Part shown: piece by piece, positions 1 to 10,703 of the stretch
Layout of the letters: every line of letters begins with the position of its first letter
How positions within the stretch are numbered: the first letter of the stretch is position 1
Virus record (IMG/VR): IMGVR_UViG_3300034375_003691
Location: 1-20,466 of that record
DNA: 20,466 nt
Strand: one strand, 5' to 3'
From: a virus
The notes under the pieces: model-generated
Told to the model about the DNA's origin: nothing
What the model saw: only the letters and a program-made list of their open reading frames with translations
Databases searched by the model: none
Program-made: the position numbers and the translations under genes

Positions 1-27
1 TTTTCCTGCATTTCGAACAAAAAGTGC

Positions 28-33
28 TATGGT
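28..33 (+). promoter_or_regulatory. possible leaderless promoter -10 box (TATGGT)
   Basis: TATGGT lies exactly six bases before the ATG at 40, the spacing expected if transcription begins at the start codon, as in actinobacterial leaderless genes. The same TANNNT-six-ATG layout recurs before the genes at 8184 and 12173. No convincing -35 is visible this close to the window edge. GGTGAG at 31-36 could instead act as a weak ribosome binding site, so the call is tentative. Confidence 0.4.
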
Positions 34-39
34 GAGAAA

Positions 40-474
40 ATGCCGAATCCTGCGAAACCACTTGAGATGAAGCGTTTGACGGGGAATCCCGGTCAGCGCA
101 AAATGCCTGAGATTAGTGAGACTTTTGAGCTTGAGGGCGGTTATGTTGAACCGCATCGTGAGCTGGGTGAGGCGGGGAAGGCTTTATGGGATCGCGTGTT
201 TAGTCATGGCAAGACGTGGGTTTCTCGGCAGACTGATGTTGAAGCTTTGATGATTGTGTGTAAGCAGCTCGATCGTCAGGTGATGTTGGAGAAGCAGGTT
301 GAATCTGCGCCTGATGATTTTCATTTGCTTCGGCAGTTGTTGGAGTTGGAGAAGGCGATTATGTCTGGGCTTGGGGTGATGGGTTTCACGGTTGATGCTC
401 GCGCCCGTTTGGGTCTTGCGGAGATTAAGGCTAAGTCTGCTTTTGAGACTTTGATGGCGGAGCGTGCTCAGTGA
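40..474 (+). CDS. terS: phage terminase small subunit, P27 family
   Basis: This 144-residue protein probably recognises phage DNA and hands it to the large terminase during packaging. Its N-terminus carries the family signature, a KRLTGNPG-type motif at residues 11-18. A helical, charged body follows, as expected of small terminases that assemble into rings. The length fits the P27 family. The gene is the first of a packaging block and overlaps the methyltransferase start as GTGA. The large terminase lies downstream of the methyltransferase. An ATG with either a leaderless promoter or a weak GGTGAG ribosome site supports the start at 40. The family assignment rests on the N-terminal motif and the position; no HTH can be named with confidence by eye. 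Confidence 0.85.
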   Translation: MPNPAKPLEMKRLTGNPGQRKMPEISETFELEGGYVEPHRELGEAGKALWDRVFSHGKTWVSRQTDVEALMIVCKQLDRQVMLEKQVESAPDDFHLLRQLLELEKAIMSGLGVMGFTVDARARLGLAEIKAKSAFETLMAERAQ

Positions 475-1058
475 AGATAGGTTCGCTGTTTTCTGGGTAT
501 GGCGGTTTGGATATGGCGGTGTCTAATCTGCTTGATGCTGAGGTGGCGTGGCATTGTGAGTGGGCTGATGCTCCGTCTGCGATTTTGGAACACAATTTTC
601 CCGGTATAGCGAATTATCGGGATGTAAGTCAGGTCGATTGGTCGTCGGTCGAACCTGTGGACATTTTGACTGGGGGTTTCCCTTGTCAGGATGTCTCTTT
701 GGGCGGTCGGCGTGCTGGGCTTATGGCTGGCACTCGGTCTGGTTTGTGGTCGGAGTTCGCTAAGGCTATTAGCGTTCTAAAACCACGTTTGGTGATTATT
801 GAGAATGTGAGGGGACTACTCAGTGCAAGAGCCGGTAGCGATTTGGAACATTGTCCGTGGTGTATGGGAGAGACCGACAGCGAGCAACCTGTTTTGCGAG
901 CACTCGGAGCTGTTCTCGGAGACTTGGCCGACCTCGGGTACGATGCTCGATGGAAGGGCGTACTCGCCTCTGATGCTGGAGCTCCCCACAGAAGGTTCCG
1001 TGTTTTTATCACGGCCTATCCCAGAGGAGAGTCTGTTCAGAACGCCATCCGCATCTGA
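471..1058 (+). CDS. DNA cytosine-C5 methyltransferase, N-terminal catalytic part (motifs I-VIII)
   Basis: This 195-residue protein carries the cofactor-binding and catalytic half of a C5 cytosine methyltransferase. Motif I (FSGYGGLDM, residues 7-15) binds S-adenosylmethionine. Motif IV (GGFPCQDVS, 68-76) holds the catalytic cysteine C72. Motif VI (ENVRG, 111-115) and motif VIII (HRRFRVF, 173-179) are also intact. The protein then ends at 195 residues, without the target-recognition region or motifs IX and X; a complete enzyme is usually over 300 residues. The missing part is encoded in the +1 frame by the gene at 823-1692. The GTG start overlaps the small terminase stop. Methylation may protect phage DNA from host restriction. 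Whether this half acts with a separate partner or by frameshifting cannot be told from sequence alone. Confidence 0.88.
   Translation: MKIGSLFSGYGGLDMAVSNLLDAEVAWHCEWADAPSAILEHNFPGIANYRDVSQVDWSSVEPVDILTGGFPCQDVSLGGRRAGLMAGTRSGLWSEFAKAISVLKPRLVIIENVRGLLSARAGSDLEHCPWCMGETDSEQPVLRALGAVLGDLADLGYDARWKGVLASDAGAPHRRFRVFITAYPRGESVQNAIRI
809..814 (+). promoter_or_regulatory. internal ribosome binding site (GAGGGG) for the second methyltransferase frame
   Basis: GAGGGG lies 8-10 bases before the GTG at 823 and sits inside the motif VI codons (Val-Arg-Gly) of the first methyltransferase frame. It favours separate initiation of the downstream polypeptide over frameshifting. It could be coincidental, because the conserved codons GTG AGG GGA would create it anyway. 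Confidence 0.45.
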
Positions 1059-1692
1059 GGGCGCTGGTGGTGCCATGGCTGAGAAGAAAACTCGTGCCAG
1101 GAATCATCAGGTGATGGTGCGTGATCAGATTGCTCAGTTGGCGCACATGAATGGTTTGAAAGTGACCAAGAGTGTTCAGGAGTCTTTGTTCCCAACACCG
1201 AACACAATGGACCACTTGCCTGCTCGTGACGAGAGCAAGATTGATCGGAGCAAGGGTGGTTATGCGAACGTGCGCGAAACAGTGGTACGGGAACTTGTAC
1301 CGAAAAAGCGTGAGGCTGTTTTACCGACACCTTTGGCTACTGATTCGTATAACGACAATATGAAGTCGTCGCAAACTTCTGAAGGGTCTATGCACTCGGT
1401 TTCTTTGTCTCGCTTGGTGCATAAAACAGATATTGATTGGGGTCGCTTCACTGAGGCGATCGAGCGGTGGGAAAATGTTATAGGGCGTTCTGCGCCTAAC
1501 CCGACTAAGCCAGATGGCAAGGAGGAGACTCACCGGCTTTCGTCATCGTTCACAGAATGGATGATGGGTTTGCCGGAAGGTTTCATCACTGGTGCTGATG
1601 TTGGGCGTAAGGAGGAGCTTCGCGCTTGCGGGAATGGTGTTGTTCCGCAGCAGGCGGAGTTGGCTTTGAGGGAACTGTTGGAGCTTGAATGA
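823..1692 (+). CDS. DNA cytosine-C5 methyltransferase, C-terminal part (target recognition region, motifs IX-X), overlapping frame
   Basis: This 289-residue protein completes the methyltransferase. Residues 239-253 (RLSSSF then EWMMGLPEGF) match the motif IX region of phage C5 enzymes, and residues 262-279 (RKEELR, then GNGVVPQQ) match motif X. The middle, with LFRTP, LFPTP and VLPTP blocks, looks like a variable target-recognition region. It shares 236 bases (823-1058) with the N-terminal gene, in the +1 frame. In that overlap this frame also reads like phage methyltransferase text (TWPTSGTM, GRAY and ELPTEGS at residues 34-59). I chose the GTG at 823 because GAGGGG precedes it; an ATG at 1075, after the first gene ends, is the conservative alternative. 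The stop overlaps the large terminase start as ATGA. M.AquI and M.EcoHK31I are known two-polypeptide C5 enzymes. Confidence 0.75.
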   Translation: MQEPVAIWNIVRGVWERPTASNLFCEHSELFSETWPTSGTMLDGRAYSPLMLELPTEGSVFLSRPIPEESLFRTPSASEGAGGAMAEKKTRARNHQVMVRDQIAQLAHMNGLKVTKSVQESLFPTPNTMDHLPARDESKIDRSKGGYANVRETVVRELVPKKREAVLPTPLATDSYNDNMKSSQTSEGSMHSVSLSRLVHKTDIDWGRFTEAIERWENVIGRSAPNPTKPDGKEETHRLSSSFTEWMMGLPEGFITGADVGRKEELRACGNGVVPQQAELALRELLELE

Positions 1693-3200
1693 CTAAACCG
1701 GCGTGGTTGACGCCCGTACCGCCCGAAGCTGTCGAGCGCGGTGACGGTGATTTCATCTGCCGGTTTTCTGACGCCTTTGCCACGATTACAAAAGACTCAG
1801 TTGCGGGTGCGTCGGGTTCGCCACTTGTGTTGCGTGATTGGCAACGTACGCTCATGGGTTACTTGTTCGCCAAGGATGAGGATGGGCAACTCCGTCACCG
1901 CGTCTCCCTGGTGGGTCAGCCGAGAAAGAATGGTAAAACTTCGTTGGCTTCTGTCATTGCCTCTTTTGCGCTAATGGATGTGAAAACTCAGGGTGCAGAG
2001 ATTTACTCGGTAGCTGCCGACCGTAACCAGGCGCGTCTTGTGTTTGAGGACACGAAACGTATGATCGCTAACTCGGAGCTCAATGAGCACGTCAAGATTT
2101 ACCGCGACCACATTCTCGTACCTGCCACAAACAATGTTTACCGTGTACTGTCCGCTGACGCACCACGACACGAAGGTCTGTCACCAACACTCGTTATCTT
2201 TGACGAGCTTCACGCCCAGCCGAACCGTAACTTGTTCGATGTTATGTCGTTGGCTCAGGGTGCACGTGGAAAAATGGCGACTTTGATAGCGATTACGACC
2301 GCTGGTGTGAAAACTGATACCACCGGGCGTGACTCGATCGCTTACAGCCTTTACAACTATGGTCGCAAGATATGTAAAGGCGAATATGAGGACGAAACTT
2401 TCTTTATGGCCTGGTGGGAGGCACCTGCGGAGGCTGATCACCGCTTAGAGGACACTTGGAGGTCCGCAAACCCGGGTTTTGATGACATTGTGGCTGCTAG
2501 TGACTTTGAATCGGCGGTAAAACGTACACCCGAAGCTGAATTTCGCACAAAACGGTGCAATCAGTGGGTTTCTAGCCAACAGGCATGGCTTCCGACCGGT
2601 TCTTGGGACAAATTAGCGGAAGAATTCGACATTTCCGAGGACGATGACTATGTTTTGGGCTTTGACGGGTCTTACGCGAACGACAGCACCGCAATTTGCG
2701 CTGTAACTCTCCCAAAAGACGGCGAAAAGCCAAAAGTGAAGCTTGTGAAGGTCTGGGAGAAGGATTTTGAGCAAGATGATGACACTTGGCGCGTAAATAT
2801 CGAAGATGTGAAGCAAACAATCATCGATTTTGTCCAAAAGTACCCTCAGTGTCGCGAAATCGCGTGTGACCCGTACCGTTGGGCGTCAATGATGCAAGAT
2901 TTGGACGAAATGGACTTCCCAATCGTCGAATACAAGACAAATTTGCTCAATTTGATGATTCCAGCGACTCAAAAGGTGTTTGAGGCGGTCACTGAAGAGC
3001 GTTTAGTGCATGATGGCAACCCTGTGCTGTCACGCCACATAGATAACTGTGTTATCAAGATGGATCACCGTGGTCAGAGGGTTACGAAGGAGTCATCGGC
3101 GTCAAGGAAGAAGATTGACGCTGCGATAGCCTTCATTATCGCCTACGATCGTGCAACAGCAAGTAGAATAGATGAGGGAGTGCCGGAGTTTTTCTTCTAA
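1689..3200 (+). CDS. terL: terminase large subunit (packaging ATPase and nuclease)
   Basis: This 503-residue motor pumps DNA into the prohead and cuts it. The ATPase half shows a Walker A-like loop (GQPRKNGKTS, residues 76-85), a Walker B strand ending in acidic residues (LVIFDE, 168-173) and a coupling-type TTAG (203-206). The C-terminal RNase H-like nuclease shows the expected acidic residues: D326 (GFDGS), D393 (ACDPYRW) and D477 (KKIDAAIAF). The length is normal for Terminase_1-type large subunits. It starts at an ATG overlapping the methyltransferase stop and lies two genes after the small terminase, so the methyltransferase interrupts the usual terS-terL pair. A small hydrophobic gene and the portal follow. 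Confidence 0.96.
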   Translation: MTKPAWLTPVPPEAVERGDGDFICRFSDAFATITKDSVAGASGSPLVLRDWQRTLMGYLFAKDEDGQLRHRVSLVGQPRKNGKTSLASVIASFALMDVKTQGAEIYSVAADRNQARLVFEDTKRMIANSELNEHVKIYRDHILVPATNNVYRVLSADAPRHEGLSPTLVIFDELHAQPNRNLFDVMSLAQGARGKMATLIAITTAGVKTDTTGRDSIAYSLYNYGRKICKGEYEDETFFMAWWEAPAEADHRLEDTWRSANPGFDDIVAASDFESAVKRTPEAEFRTKRCNQWVSSQQAWLPTGSWDKLAEEFDISEDDDYVLGFDGSYANDSTAICAVTLPKDGEKPKVKLVKVWEKDFEQDDDTWRVNIEDVKQTIIDFVQKYPQCREIACDPYRWASMMQDLDEMDFPIVEYKTNLLNLMIPATQKVFEAVTEERLVHDGNPVLSRHIDNCVIKMDHRGQRVTKESSASRKKIDAAIAFIIAYDRATASRIDEGVPEFFF

Positions 3201-3207
3201 GGACAAT

Positions 3208-3342
3208 ATGCTGGTAAACATTTTGCAAATTAGTGGCGCAGTTCTCGTAGCCGCGGGTGCGGCTTTGGTTTTCCCTCCCGCCGGTCTTATCGTGGCTGGC
3301 GCATTCGCAATTCTTTTTGGTATGAGTTTGGAGCGTAGGTAA
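3208..3342 (+). CDS. small hydrophobic protein, predicted membrane hairpin
   Basis: A 44-residue protein fills the gap between large terminase and portal. It starts at ATG 3208, five bases after AAGGA (3199-3203), and its TAA shares a base with the portal ATG (TAATG). Residues 5-39 are almost wholly hydrophobic, rich in Ala, Val, Gly, Leu and Ile, with a Pro-Pro at about 25-26 that could turn a helical hairpin. The tail (SLERR) is positive. The exact packing between neighbours and the good ribosome site make it a likely real gene. Its function is unknown; membrane association is the only inference I would make. Confidence 0.7.
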   Translation: MLVNILQISGAVLVAAGAALVFPPAGLIVAGAFAILFGMSLERR

Positions 3343-8183: not shown

Positions 8184-9404
8184 ATGGGAAAAAGTGGGAA
8201 TCCGATTGCTAAGCAACAACTGTCTGGCGCTGTAGGGGTTTGGTCTAACTCTTACGACGCACCTACTGGCTACGGTCAGCAAGTGAAGTACATGATTGAC
8301 CGTTTGAAACGTCACGGTCTGGATGTGGCAAACTTCTCTAACTTTGGTCTTGAGGGCAAGATCGATACGATTCAGACACCGCATGGACCGGTGAAGCATT
8401 TTCCGCGTAGCTTTGGTCATGGTTACTCGATGGATGTTCTTGTACCTGACTTTATGACCTGGGCGAACTCGACTGGTAAGAAAGATGTCCTGTTCACGCT
8501 GTATGACGTGTGGGTTTTGGATTCACCGCATTTGGAGAAGATGCGTCAGATTTGGTCCTGGACGCCTCTTGATCACATAACGATGCCACCGAAGGTGAAA
8601 GAGTGGTTGGTGAAACCGAATGTGTTGCCGATTGCAATGTCACCATTTGGTCAGCGGGAAATGCAAAACCATGAAATAGAGCATGCTTATGTTCCGCACG
8701 GTATTGACACGAAGGTACTCCGTCCGAGCTATAACCTGACTAACGGGATGGATGTTCGCGATTATTGGAAGAGTCGTGACAGTTTCATTGTTGGGATGGT
8801 TGCTGCTAACAAAGCGTCCGGTCTGATTCACAGGAAAGCGTTTAGCGAGAATCTGACAGCGTTTAGCATTTTCCACAAGAAGCACCCGGACACAAAACTG
8901 TATTTGCACACGGATGCGACAGGATCGGGTATTGGTTGGAATTTGCTGGAGCTCCTGAAGGCTTTGGATGTGCCAGCGGAAAGCATTTTGCTTGTCAACC
9001 CGCTTGAGTATCGTTATGGGTCGCCACAGGCAGACTTGGCTGCTTATTACAGCGCCATGGATGTTTTGTTAGCGCCTAGCATGGGTGAGGGTTTTGGTGT
9101 GCCGACTATTGAGGCGCAAGCGTGTGGAACGAGAGCGATTGCCTCTAGTTGGGCCGCTTCGCAAGATTTAGTTGCCGAGGATGGTTGGCTTGTGGATGGT
9201 GTGCCTTTGTGGGATGCCGGTCAGAGCTCTTGGTGGCAGACCCCGAAGATTCCGTCGATCGTGGATGCTTTGGAGGACGCTTACCAGCAAGGCAAGGGCG
9301 AGTCGAAGGTGGCTCGGGAGTTTGCTTTGCAGTTTGATGTGGAGACTGTGTGGCGCGATTACTGGATGCCGTTGCTGAGGGGTGAGTTTAGTGAAACGTC
9401 TTGA
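8184..9404 (+). CDS. glycosyltransferase, GT-B fold (GT4-like)
   Basis: This 406-residue protein probably moves a sugar from a nucleotide donor to an acceptor. The C-terminal half carries the donor-binding signature of GT4-type enzymes: the E-x7-E motif with E302 and E310 (EGFGVPTIE), followed by AQACGTRAIAS. SPFGQREM (about 153-160) and the HGIDTKVLRP segment (about 172-181) match the family's first-domain end and linker. The N-terminus has the GYGQQVKYMIDRL block seen in family 4 enzymes. It is cytoplasmic, with no signal or membrane segment. It is the first gene of a three-gene cassette between capsid and connector. Related enzymes in actinobacteriophages have been linked to glycosylation of virion proteins, so capsid or tail proteins are likely acceptors, which is an inference. 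Confidence 0.88.
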   Translation: MGKSGNPIAKQQLSGAVGVWSNSYDAPTGYGQQVKYMIDRLKRHGLDVANFSNFGLEGKIDTIQTPHGPVKHFPRSFGHGYSMDVLVPDFMTWANSTGKKDVLFTLYDVWVLDSPHLEKMRQIWSWTPLDHITMPPKVKEWLVKPNVLPIAMSPFGQREMQNHEIEHAYVPHGIDTKVLRPSYNLTNGMDVRDYWKSRDSFIVGMVAANKASGLIHRKAFSENLTAFSIFHKKHPDTKLYLHTDATGSGIGWNLLELLKALDVPAESILLVNPLEYRYGSPQADLAAYYSAMDVLLAPSMGEGFGVPTIEAQACGTRAIASSWAASQDLVAEDGWLVDGVPLWDAGQSSWWQTPKIPSIVDALEDAYQQGKGESKVAREFALQFDVETVWRDYWMPLLRGEFSETS

Positions 9405-10050
9405 CACGCTGAAGGATAAGCACTCGGGTTCTACTATCTGGGTGTTCGGTTCTGGTGCGTCAGTAGGGTATCTGTCGCCTCGGTTCTTTGATGACAAGAT
9501 ATGTGTCGCAACGAATCTCATCGCCGATTACTTTGACCTTCGCGCATACTATTTGTTCACTCATTACCACTACTGTGTGTTGCAAAATTTAGCTAACCCT
9601 GGAATGTTGGCTGCTGTGACACATGACGTGTGTTCTTCGCGTTGGCACCCAAATCCGGGGTCTATCCCCGGTGAGGGGTGTGTGCAGAACGAGTCGAGGC
9701 TTATCTATAACACTTTGACTGACCCAACACCGAAGGGTGACGGTTTCGATCCGTACAAGCACGCCAAGAAGGATGAGATTGTGTTTGGCTCATCGTCGAT
9801 TCACGGGTCAATGCACTTGGCTGCGTGGATGGGTGCAAGCAACATTGTGTTGGTGGGTGCTGATTGTGGAAGCATTGATGGTGAGCATCGTGTGGACGAG
9901 TATCCTCCTGGTCATCAGCCGTGGGATTTGTATAACCGTCATTTGATGCGGATGAAGGCTTGGCTGAAAGAGAACTACTCGGTTGAGGTGTATTCGTTGA
10001 ACCCGTTTGTCAATTTCAATCTTGAGGGTCACAAGTTTCAGGGCGTGTGA
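9391..10050 (+). CDS. DUF115/MptE-like putative sugar-metabolism enzyme
   Basis: I do not recognise this 219-residue protein with certainty. It opens with a Rossmann-like IWVFGSGASVGYL strand-loop-helix (residues 16-28), continues with CVATNLIADYF (38-48) and YYLFTHYHY (53-61), and has a second half with SSIHGSMHLAAWMGA (135-149) then NIVLVGADC (151-159). This pattern (GxGxS loop, a late S-x5-A helix, then a GADC strand) resembles DUF115/MptE-like proteins and some GT42-type sialyltransferases, which act in glycan pathways. The GTG at 9391 is preferred because GAGGGG (9377-9382) lies eight bases upstream; GTG 9382 has no spaced ribosome site. It overlaps the GT-B gene by 14 bases and the GT-A gene by one, so it is co-translated with two glycosyltransferases. 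Confidence 0.6.
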   Translation: MKRLDTLKDKHSGSTIWVFGSGASVGYLSPRFFDDKICVATNLIADYFDLRAYYLFTHYHYCVLQNLANPGMLAAVTHDVCSSRWHPNPGSIPGEGCVQNESRLIYNTLTDPTPKGDGFDPYKHAKKDEIVFGSSSIHGSMHLAAWMGASNIVLVGADCGSIDGEHRVDEYPPGHQPWDLYNRHLMRMKAWLKENYSVEVYSLNPFVNFNLEGHKFQGV

Positions 10051-10703
10051 TGTTACCTAACCTGATTGTCCCGGTGTTGAATCGGTATGACTTGTTGCGT
10101 CGCATGTTGGCAAGTATCAATTTTCCGATACGCGATCTTCTCATTATTGATAATGGTGGCGAGTTCTACGATGTTCTACATTCTGAATACATTGACAACA
10201 TTCGTATTTTGAACATACCAGCGAATCTGGGGGTGGGTGGCTCTTGGAATCTTGGTATTAAGTCGTTTCCGAACGATGACCGGTGGTTTTTTGCCTCTAA
10301 TGACATGGTTTTCTTACCAGGTGCTTATGAGAGCCTCTGTGAGGCTCGTAGAGACGAGATAACGCTTTCCGATATGTTTCCTCATTGGCACACGTTTTCT
10401 CTCGGTGATGAGGCTGTCAGCCGTATAGGTTTGTTCGATGAGTGCGGTTTCTTCCCCGCTTACTTTGAGGATAACGATTACATGCGTCGCGCCGAGTATT
10501 GTGACGTGACGGTTAGGCGAATCAATATCCCGACCGAGCATGACAACTCTTCGACTATTCGTAGTGATGCTCGTTACAACGCCATGAATGATCAGTCATT
10601 CCGTCGCAACTCCGCATATTTTCACGACAAAGTAGCGAGACAGGATTACAGCGCCGGTCAATGGTCTTTGGATGTTCGTCGCTTAAACGACTGGGGTAAG
10701 TGA
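10050..10703 (+). CDS. glycosyltransferase, GT-A fold (GT2-like)
   Basis: This 217-residue protein shows GT-A features: an N-terminal IVPVLNRYDLLRRML segment (6-20), the LLIIDNGG strand (30-37) typical of family 2 nucleotide-sugar binding, ANLGVGGSWNLGI (58-70), and a DxD-like SNDM (83-86) after a WFF strand. FEDNDYMRRA (139-148) matches the conserved acidic acceptor-side motif of this family. The ATG at 10050 is preferred (AGGG six bases upstream, TGATG overlap); a GTG at 10047 would add one residue. At 217 residues it is shorter than many GT2 enzymes, suggesting a minimal catalytic domain. It closes the glycosylation cassette, and a promoter-like TAGACT follows its stop. Confidence 0.85.
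   Translation: MLPNLIVPVLNRYDLLRRMLASINFPIRDLLIIDNGGEFYDVLHSEYIDNIRILNIPANLGVGGSWNLGIKSFPNDDRWFFASNDMVFLPGAYESLCEARRDEITLSDMFPHWHTFSLGDEAVSRIGLFDECGFFPAYFEDNDYMRRAEYCDVTVRRINIPTEHDNSSTIRSDARYNAMNDQSFRRNSAYFHDKVARQDYSAGQWSLDVRRLNDWGK

Follow-up and report, generated by a model that had tools for sequence, protein, structure and literature searches.

Overlapping phage genes that probably encode one C5-cytosine DNA methyltransferase as two polypeptides

Genomic locus of the methyltransferase pair

The window analysed here is the whole stretch of 20,466 bases from a viral record. Two overlapping plus-strand genes, alpha (471-1058) and beta (823-1692), lie between the genes for the small terminase subunit (40..474, plus strand; phrog_83, 8e-15) and the large terminase subunit (1689..3200, plus strand; PF20441, 2e-20; PF03354, 4e-15). 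The start of alpha overlaps the stop of the small terminase gene (GTGA) and the stop of beta overlaps the start of the large terminase gene (ATGA), so that the pair, with overlaps at both outer ends, belongs to a tightly packed gene block. Portal, prohead protease and capsid genes follow, and after these three putative glycosyltransferase-type genes and further late genes. The three successive genes (8184-10703) give glycosyltransferase-like or MptE-like matches (Pfam 1e-10, 1e-4 and 3e-5) and sit between the capsid and tail genes, which is unusual within a structural block. An Rfam search of window positions 1-3300 gave no match, and no restriction gene was recognised in the contig, which is partial and contains many unclassified ORFs.

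Alpha encodes 195 aa from a GTG start and matches PF00145 (3e-32) and phrog_363 (3e-62), the former over the first 165 of 324 model positions only. The C5 methyltransferase motifs I, IV (PCQ, 681-689), VI (ENV, 801-809) and VIII are present and invariant in the alignment of relatives; GAPHRRFRVF is encoded at 978-1007. The chain ends 23 residues past the histidine of motif VIII, and in nearly all IMG/VR relatives alpha measures 184-199 aa. We read alpha as the catalytic core, its methylation activity being inferred.

Beta lies in the +1 frame relative to alpha, also begins with GTG and comprises 289 aa. Its match to phrog_1008 (3e-48) spans residues 2-287 and therefore takes in the part encoded by the overlap; a Pfam search found no match in beta. 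The overlap-encoded N-terminal domain (N-domain) is followed by three PTP modules, namely LFRTPSASEG... (1033..1185, delimited by sequence and module comparison), LFPTPNTMDH... (1186..1320) and LPTPLATDSY... (1321..1437), the latter two delimited by module comparison. The C-terminal part (1438..1692, to the stop) carries motifs IX (RLSSSFTEWMMGLPEG) and X (GNGVVPQQ). These motifs, at about 1534-1653, are absent from alpha and are supported by invariant alignment columns and the phrog_1008 match. The sequence-only reading had proposed two frames one base apart and had assigned motifs I, IV, VI and VIII to the first and IX and X to the second; both the frames and the assignments are correct.

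The structure model of beta is weak (pLDDT 68, pTM 0.37), with pLDDT about 90 for residues 205-270. Neither a PDB sequence search nor Foldseek with the beta model returned anything significant. Because the model is weak and without structural match, position is the basis for assigning target recognition to the N-domain and modules.

Conservation and dual coding of the overlap

Scans of IMG/VR yielded 18 loci with the beta query and 80 with the alpha query. Loci recruited by alpha alone still have a +1 beta, mostly from an offset of 352 nt after the alpha start. Matches to beta occur in 569 records of a phage collection, and almost all of these phages infect actinobacteria; the pair is found in phages of Actinobacteria, Firmicutes and Bacteroidota. 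The beta ORF includes motif X in 71 of 85 loci, and motif X lies outside the same +1 ORF in the other 14. The comparison of homologues that had been suggested as a check thus finds both the split and the overlap conserved in nearly all relatives. In five loci (L044, L046, L049, L070 and L085), beta is split into more frames among its modules, frequently where runs of G (GGGG and longer) occur; these further breaks could reflect phase variation, imprecise cassette insertion or assembly error.

The overlap (823-1058, plus strand, 236 nt) encodes motifs VI-VIII of alpha and the N-domain of beta, in which W8, W15, G39 and G44 are invariant. The +1 frame of the window is open from position 811. Since 21% of synonymous recodings of alpha leave this frame open (p = 0.21), the open frame of a single sequence is unremarkable, and the case for dual coding therefore rests on the relatives. 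The stop test used 93 non-redundant loci (<97% identity) and, as null, synonymous shuffles keeping the alpha protein and the codon use of each sequence; genome loci recruited with the +1 N-domain were left out of it and used for the module region. A single +1 stop was observed in the overlap versus 191.7 expected, while an upstream control region of the same loci without a proposed gene has 505 versus 458 expected. At conserved amino acids, synonymous codon identity is 0.565 in the overlap versus 0.380 upstream. The +1 peptide of the overlap is conserved far beyond the shuffles (BLOSUM 2.29 vs 0.47, z = 89), the upstream +1 control peptide much less so (0.71 vs 0.51, z = 19). The +2 frame of the overlap also exceeds its null in conservation, as expected from nucleotide constraint, yet contains 279 stops. 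The locus thereby has a second ORF that overlaps the first in another frame, with both frames coding, as in the M.EcoHK31I type. As far as comparison of sequences can establish it, the evidence for dual coding across the relatives is decisive and more than chance. With about 80 codons constrained in two frames at once, the overlap may serve as a test case for overlapping genes.

Initiation signals of beta

A putative Shine-Dalgarno (SD) sequence for beta, GAGGGG (809..814, plus strand), is located 8 nt before the GTG, within the alpha codons for ENV-R-G of motif VI. Its duplex energy of -8.6 kcal/mol lies at the 5th percentile of random stretches, and the GTG at 823 is the sole +1 start codon before 943. 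Counted from the alpha start, 42 loci, the window among them, have a beta start at +352 only (GTG or ATG), 33 at +334 only (ATG) and 10 at both positions. Neither main start is present in 8 of the 93 loci, six of which have an upstream GTG, at +268 in the loci inspected. An SD-like site is present in all 42 loci of the +352-only class; in 34 of them a +1 stop directly precedes the start, and 33 use AGG for the ENV-R-G arginine that forms the SD, compared with 10% elsewhere in alpha.

Overlaps are already annotated for ArV1_067a/b (266 nt) and Ryadel gp8/gp7 (209 nt), and the annotations of Chickaboom, Scottish and Wile place the beta start after or right at the alpha stop. For Chickaboom gp42, Scottish gp69, Sebastisaurus gp35 and Wile gp74 (L100, L106, L190 and L193), the true beta start probably lies further upstream than annotated; both the +1 ORF and the conserved domain already begin within alpha. 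The betas of many phage annotations probably start too late and are too short.

Three layouts of motifs IX and X

The N-domain and modules remain in the +1 frame in all relatives classified, and three layouts are distinguished by the location of motifs IX and X. Type S, to which the window belongs, has both motifs with beta; beta is open to IX in +1 in 75 of 84 classified IMG/VR loci, window included. The alpha frame of type S is not kept open through the module region (909 stops vs 892).

In type N, motifs IX and X lie in the alpha frame, and beta, consisting of N-domain and modules, is nested in alpha. This layout is found in 66 of 72 classified GTDB loci and in the phages MidnightRain, MelBins and prophiT49-1. 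By GC phase, coding is in +1 for the module region (0.858 at the +1 third position vs 0.609) and in frame 0 for IX-X, with the alpha frame open through the module region (0 stops vs 60.2 expected; +2 control 99 vs 101). In an AlphaFold model of a type N alpha (pTM 0.74), I-VIII and IX-X are each well folded, and the module stretch between them appears as a disordered linker (187-236, below pLDDT 50); the model in its entirety matches M.HhaI at 9e-12. In some annotated methylases, the 'variable region' of frame 0 is probably such a shadow linker.

An extra frame change at motif IV occurs in 44 type N GTDB loci from Streptomyces and relatives (L118, L141, L145, L176 and 40 others). The switch reads CCC TGT CAA / A GAC GTC TCG, so that GFPCQ is followed by DVSVAG in +1. 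Its core, CCTGTCAAAGAC, is invariant except for TGT/TGC in 2 of 35 distinct loci, among which nucleotide identity falls as low as 0.62; the flanking codons counted contain no other AGA. From these patterns, the switch looks like a conserved programmed +1 frameshift or like an old lesion that was retained for a different reason.

Type E has motif IX in the nested +1 ORF and motif X in alpha. It is found in Paenibacillus phage Leyra, Lactobacillus phage Lc-Nu and a Porphyromonas phage, and in 94 of 125 distinct other viral loci from a set seeded with these three. Non-actinophage loci contain 4 stops in +1 versus 227.5 expected (+2 control 413 vs 421.6). The beta of Leyra matches phrog_1008 at 8e-74, which ties type E to the window. 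All layout counts depend on seeds that already had the layout and are not estimates of prevalence.

Modular composition of beta

From 71 betas, 236 modules of about 28-64 aa were cut, with 1-6 per protein and most often 2-5. They occur in 49 different orders among the 71 betas; in 14 pairs of loci, a module is ≥85% identical while the alphas are below 75%. The clustering into module families is single-linkage and coarse. The position between motifs VIII and IX, the exchangeability and the copy number suggest that the modules are target-recognition cassettes, although their specificity is inferred. If they do set specificity, they would amount to a naturally occurring set of cassettes with which DNA methylation could be re-targeted, and would illustrate a way in which phages may alter their marks. 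Five loci (L004, L033, L037, L044 and L070) have additional PTP-type modules (PTPTVSDTFTDNLASTQQKEGSMHSVTLPQAV) downstream of motif X, either in the same frame or in a different one, resembling a reserve cassette.

Evaluation of alternative explanations

Two overlapping genes for two subunits are the best-supported of the explanations offered in the sequence-only reading, given the conserved split and overlap and beta's own start and SD. Three features went unnoticed in that reading: the conserved domain that the overlap encodes in beta, the shift of motifs IX-X from one frame to the other among relatives, and the use of the exact M.EcoHK31I partition by many phages. Its other suggestions were a programmed +1 frameshift near CCC AGA (1020), which would fuse both frames into one chain, and a sequence error. 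The CCC followed by A is indeed present, CCC occupies that proline codon in 43 of 68 loci, and reading across CCCA yields a plausible fused chain in 14 loci. This CCC, however, merely reflects the PTP motif encoded in +1 (CCT ACC CCA), and past motif VIII the alpha tail is variable: its length (14-26 residues), its sequence and its stop codon all differ among loci. A conserved slippery site without need of a second start, as a frameshift would call for, is not found, and a fused product would leave the conserved N-domain, start codon and SD purposeless. With a conserved start and SD for beta, the frameshift is unnecessary, and we regard it as quite unlikely. That a sequencing or assembly error broke a single gene has a negligible chance: dozens of independent contigs share this split and its offset, as do finished phage genomes (Ryadel gp8/gp7, ArV1_067a/b), a recurrence that outweighs the one continuous-frame relative (Burkholderia phage Milagro, L191) and the existence of relatives with IX-X in the alpha frame. 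We treat this explanation as excluded by the conservation among relatives.

It might also be argued that the +1 similarity in the overlap arises merely from alpha conservation and codon bias, the true beta starting past the alpha stop, as several phage annotations have it (after or near the stop in Chickaboom gp42 and Wile gp74) and as the unremarkable open frame of the window alone would permit. Two findings nevertheless make this explanation very improbable: the null that keeps alpha protein and codon use is rejected, and the relatives conserve an SD and a start codon within alpha, the start being closely preceded by a stop. A role of beta as an accessory DNA-binding protein rather than half of an enzyme is unlikely as well. 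It would suit those relatives in which alpha holds IX and X and beta consists of N-domain and modules only; in the window, both motifs are missing from alpha and present in the beta chain, and the two parts always co-occur.

Proposed function of the two chains

We consider it highly probable that the locus encodes one C5-cytosine DNA methyltransferase made as two separately translated polypeptides from overlapping genes, with assembly and methylation inferred. The split, the dual coding, the initiation signals of beta, the conservation and the alternative layouts are supported directly, within the reach of sequence data. The assembly of the chains, DNA recognition by the modules and use of the mark against host restriction are inferences, and the absence of protein, methylation or interaction data counts against the two-chain reading.

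Alpha (471-1058) would supply the AdoMet-binding and catalytic core with motifs I-VIII. Translation of beta (823-1692) is predicted to initiate in the +1 frame within alpha, at a separate ribosome-binding site that the motif VI codons conceal; beta would contribute the overlap-encoded N-domain, three PTP modules of 35-50 residues and motifs IX-X. In one-chain enzymes the target-recognition domain occupies the place that the modules take here; recognition of the DNA target is therefore most likely the task of beta, whose C-terminal part would complete the catalytic fold together with alpha. The phage may use the methylation mark to evade host restriction. We read beta as a specificity subunit, translated on its own, with a target-recognition region built from exchangeable modules; this specificity is inferred.

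A broader proposal is that phages widely overprint the specificity subunit of a C5 methyltransferase on the catalytic one, that reading the catalytic motifs in +1 gave rise to the N-domain de novo, that the PTP modules are shuffled target-recognition cassettes, a type II counterpart of HsdS, and that single indels shift IX-X between the chains. Taken jointly, these statements have about an even chance of being right.

Comparison with known systems

M.EcoHK31I (YGGCCR), like the window, consists of two polypeptides, the second of which comes from an overlapping frame. Both M.EcoHK31I and M.AquI are documented as two-polypeptide enzymes (PMC3404938, PMC3439449). In M.EcoHK31I, alpha holds I-VIII plus X and beta holds IX (PMC3404938), a partition identical to that in Leyra and Lc-Nu, as judged by partition and not by sequence comparison. 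The window differs in having X as well as IX in beta, so that the partition is not matched, and in genes that overlap partly instead of being nested. M.AquI (CYCGRG) has I-VIII in alpha and IX-X with part of the variable region in beta (PMC3404938), i.e. the same partition as the window (again without sequence comparison); unlike in the window, no long dual-coding overlap is reported there.

PHROGs holds the halves as two families, phrog_363 for alpha and phrog_1008 for beta, both labelled DNA methyltransferase; no link between them as parts of a single enzyme with overlapping reading frames is given in the library. In Bacillus phages, multispecific C5 methyltransferases (SPR, phi3T, rho11s type) have a modular variable region, an array of short exchangeable modules as in beta. 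They are single chains, whereas the window has its array on a subunit of its own in the +1 frame. A further case of overlapping frames among actinophage methylase genes is ShiLan, with an out-of-frame HNH in a methylase insertion (PMC11855218). That HNH is a mobile endonuclease, whereas beta has no endonuclease match and carries the enzyme's own motifs.

In open-access text, the only kind searched, no description of the overlapping pair as a family was found, and the breadth, the depth of dual coding, the switching of IX-X and the module arrays appear undescribed there. Two-subunit enzymes and overlap are already known from M.AquI and M.EcoHK31I. What was biochemically an oddity of very few enzymes would become a large natural family, widespread and strongly conserved across phages.
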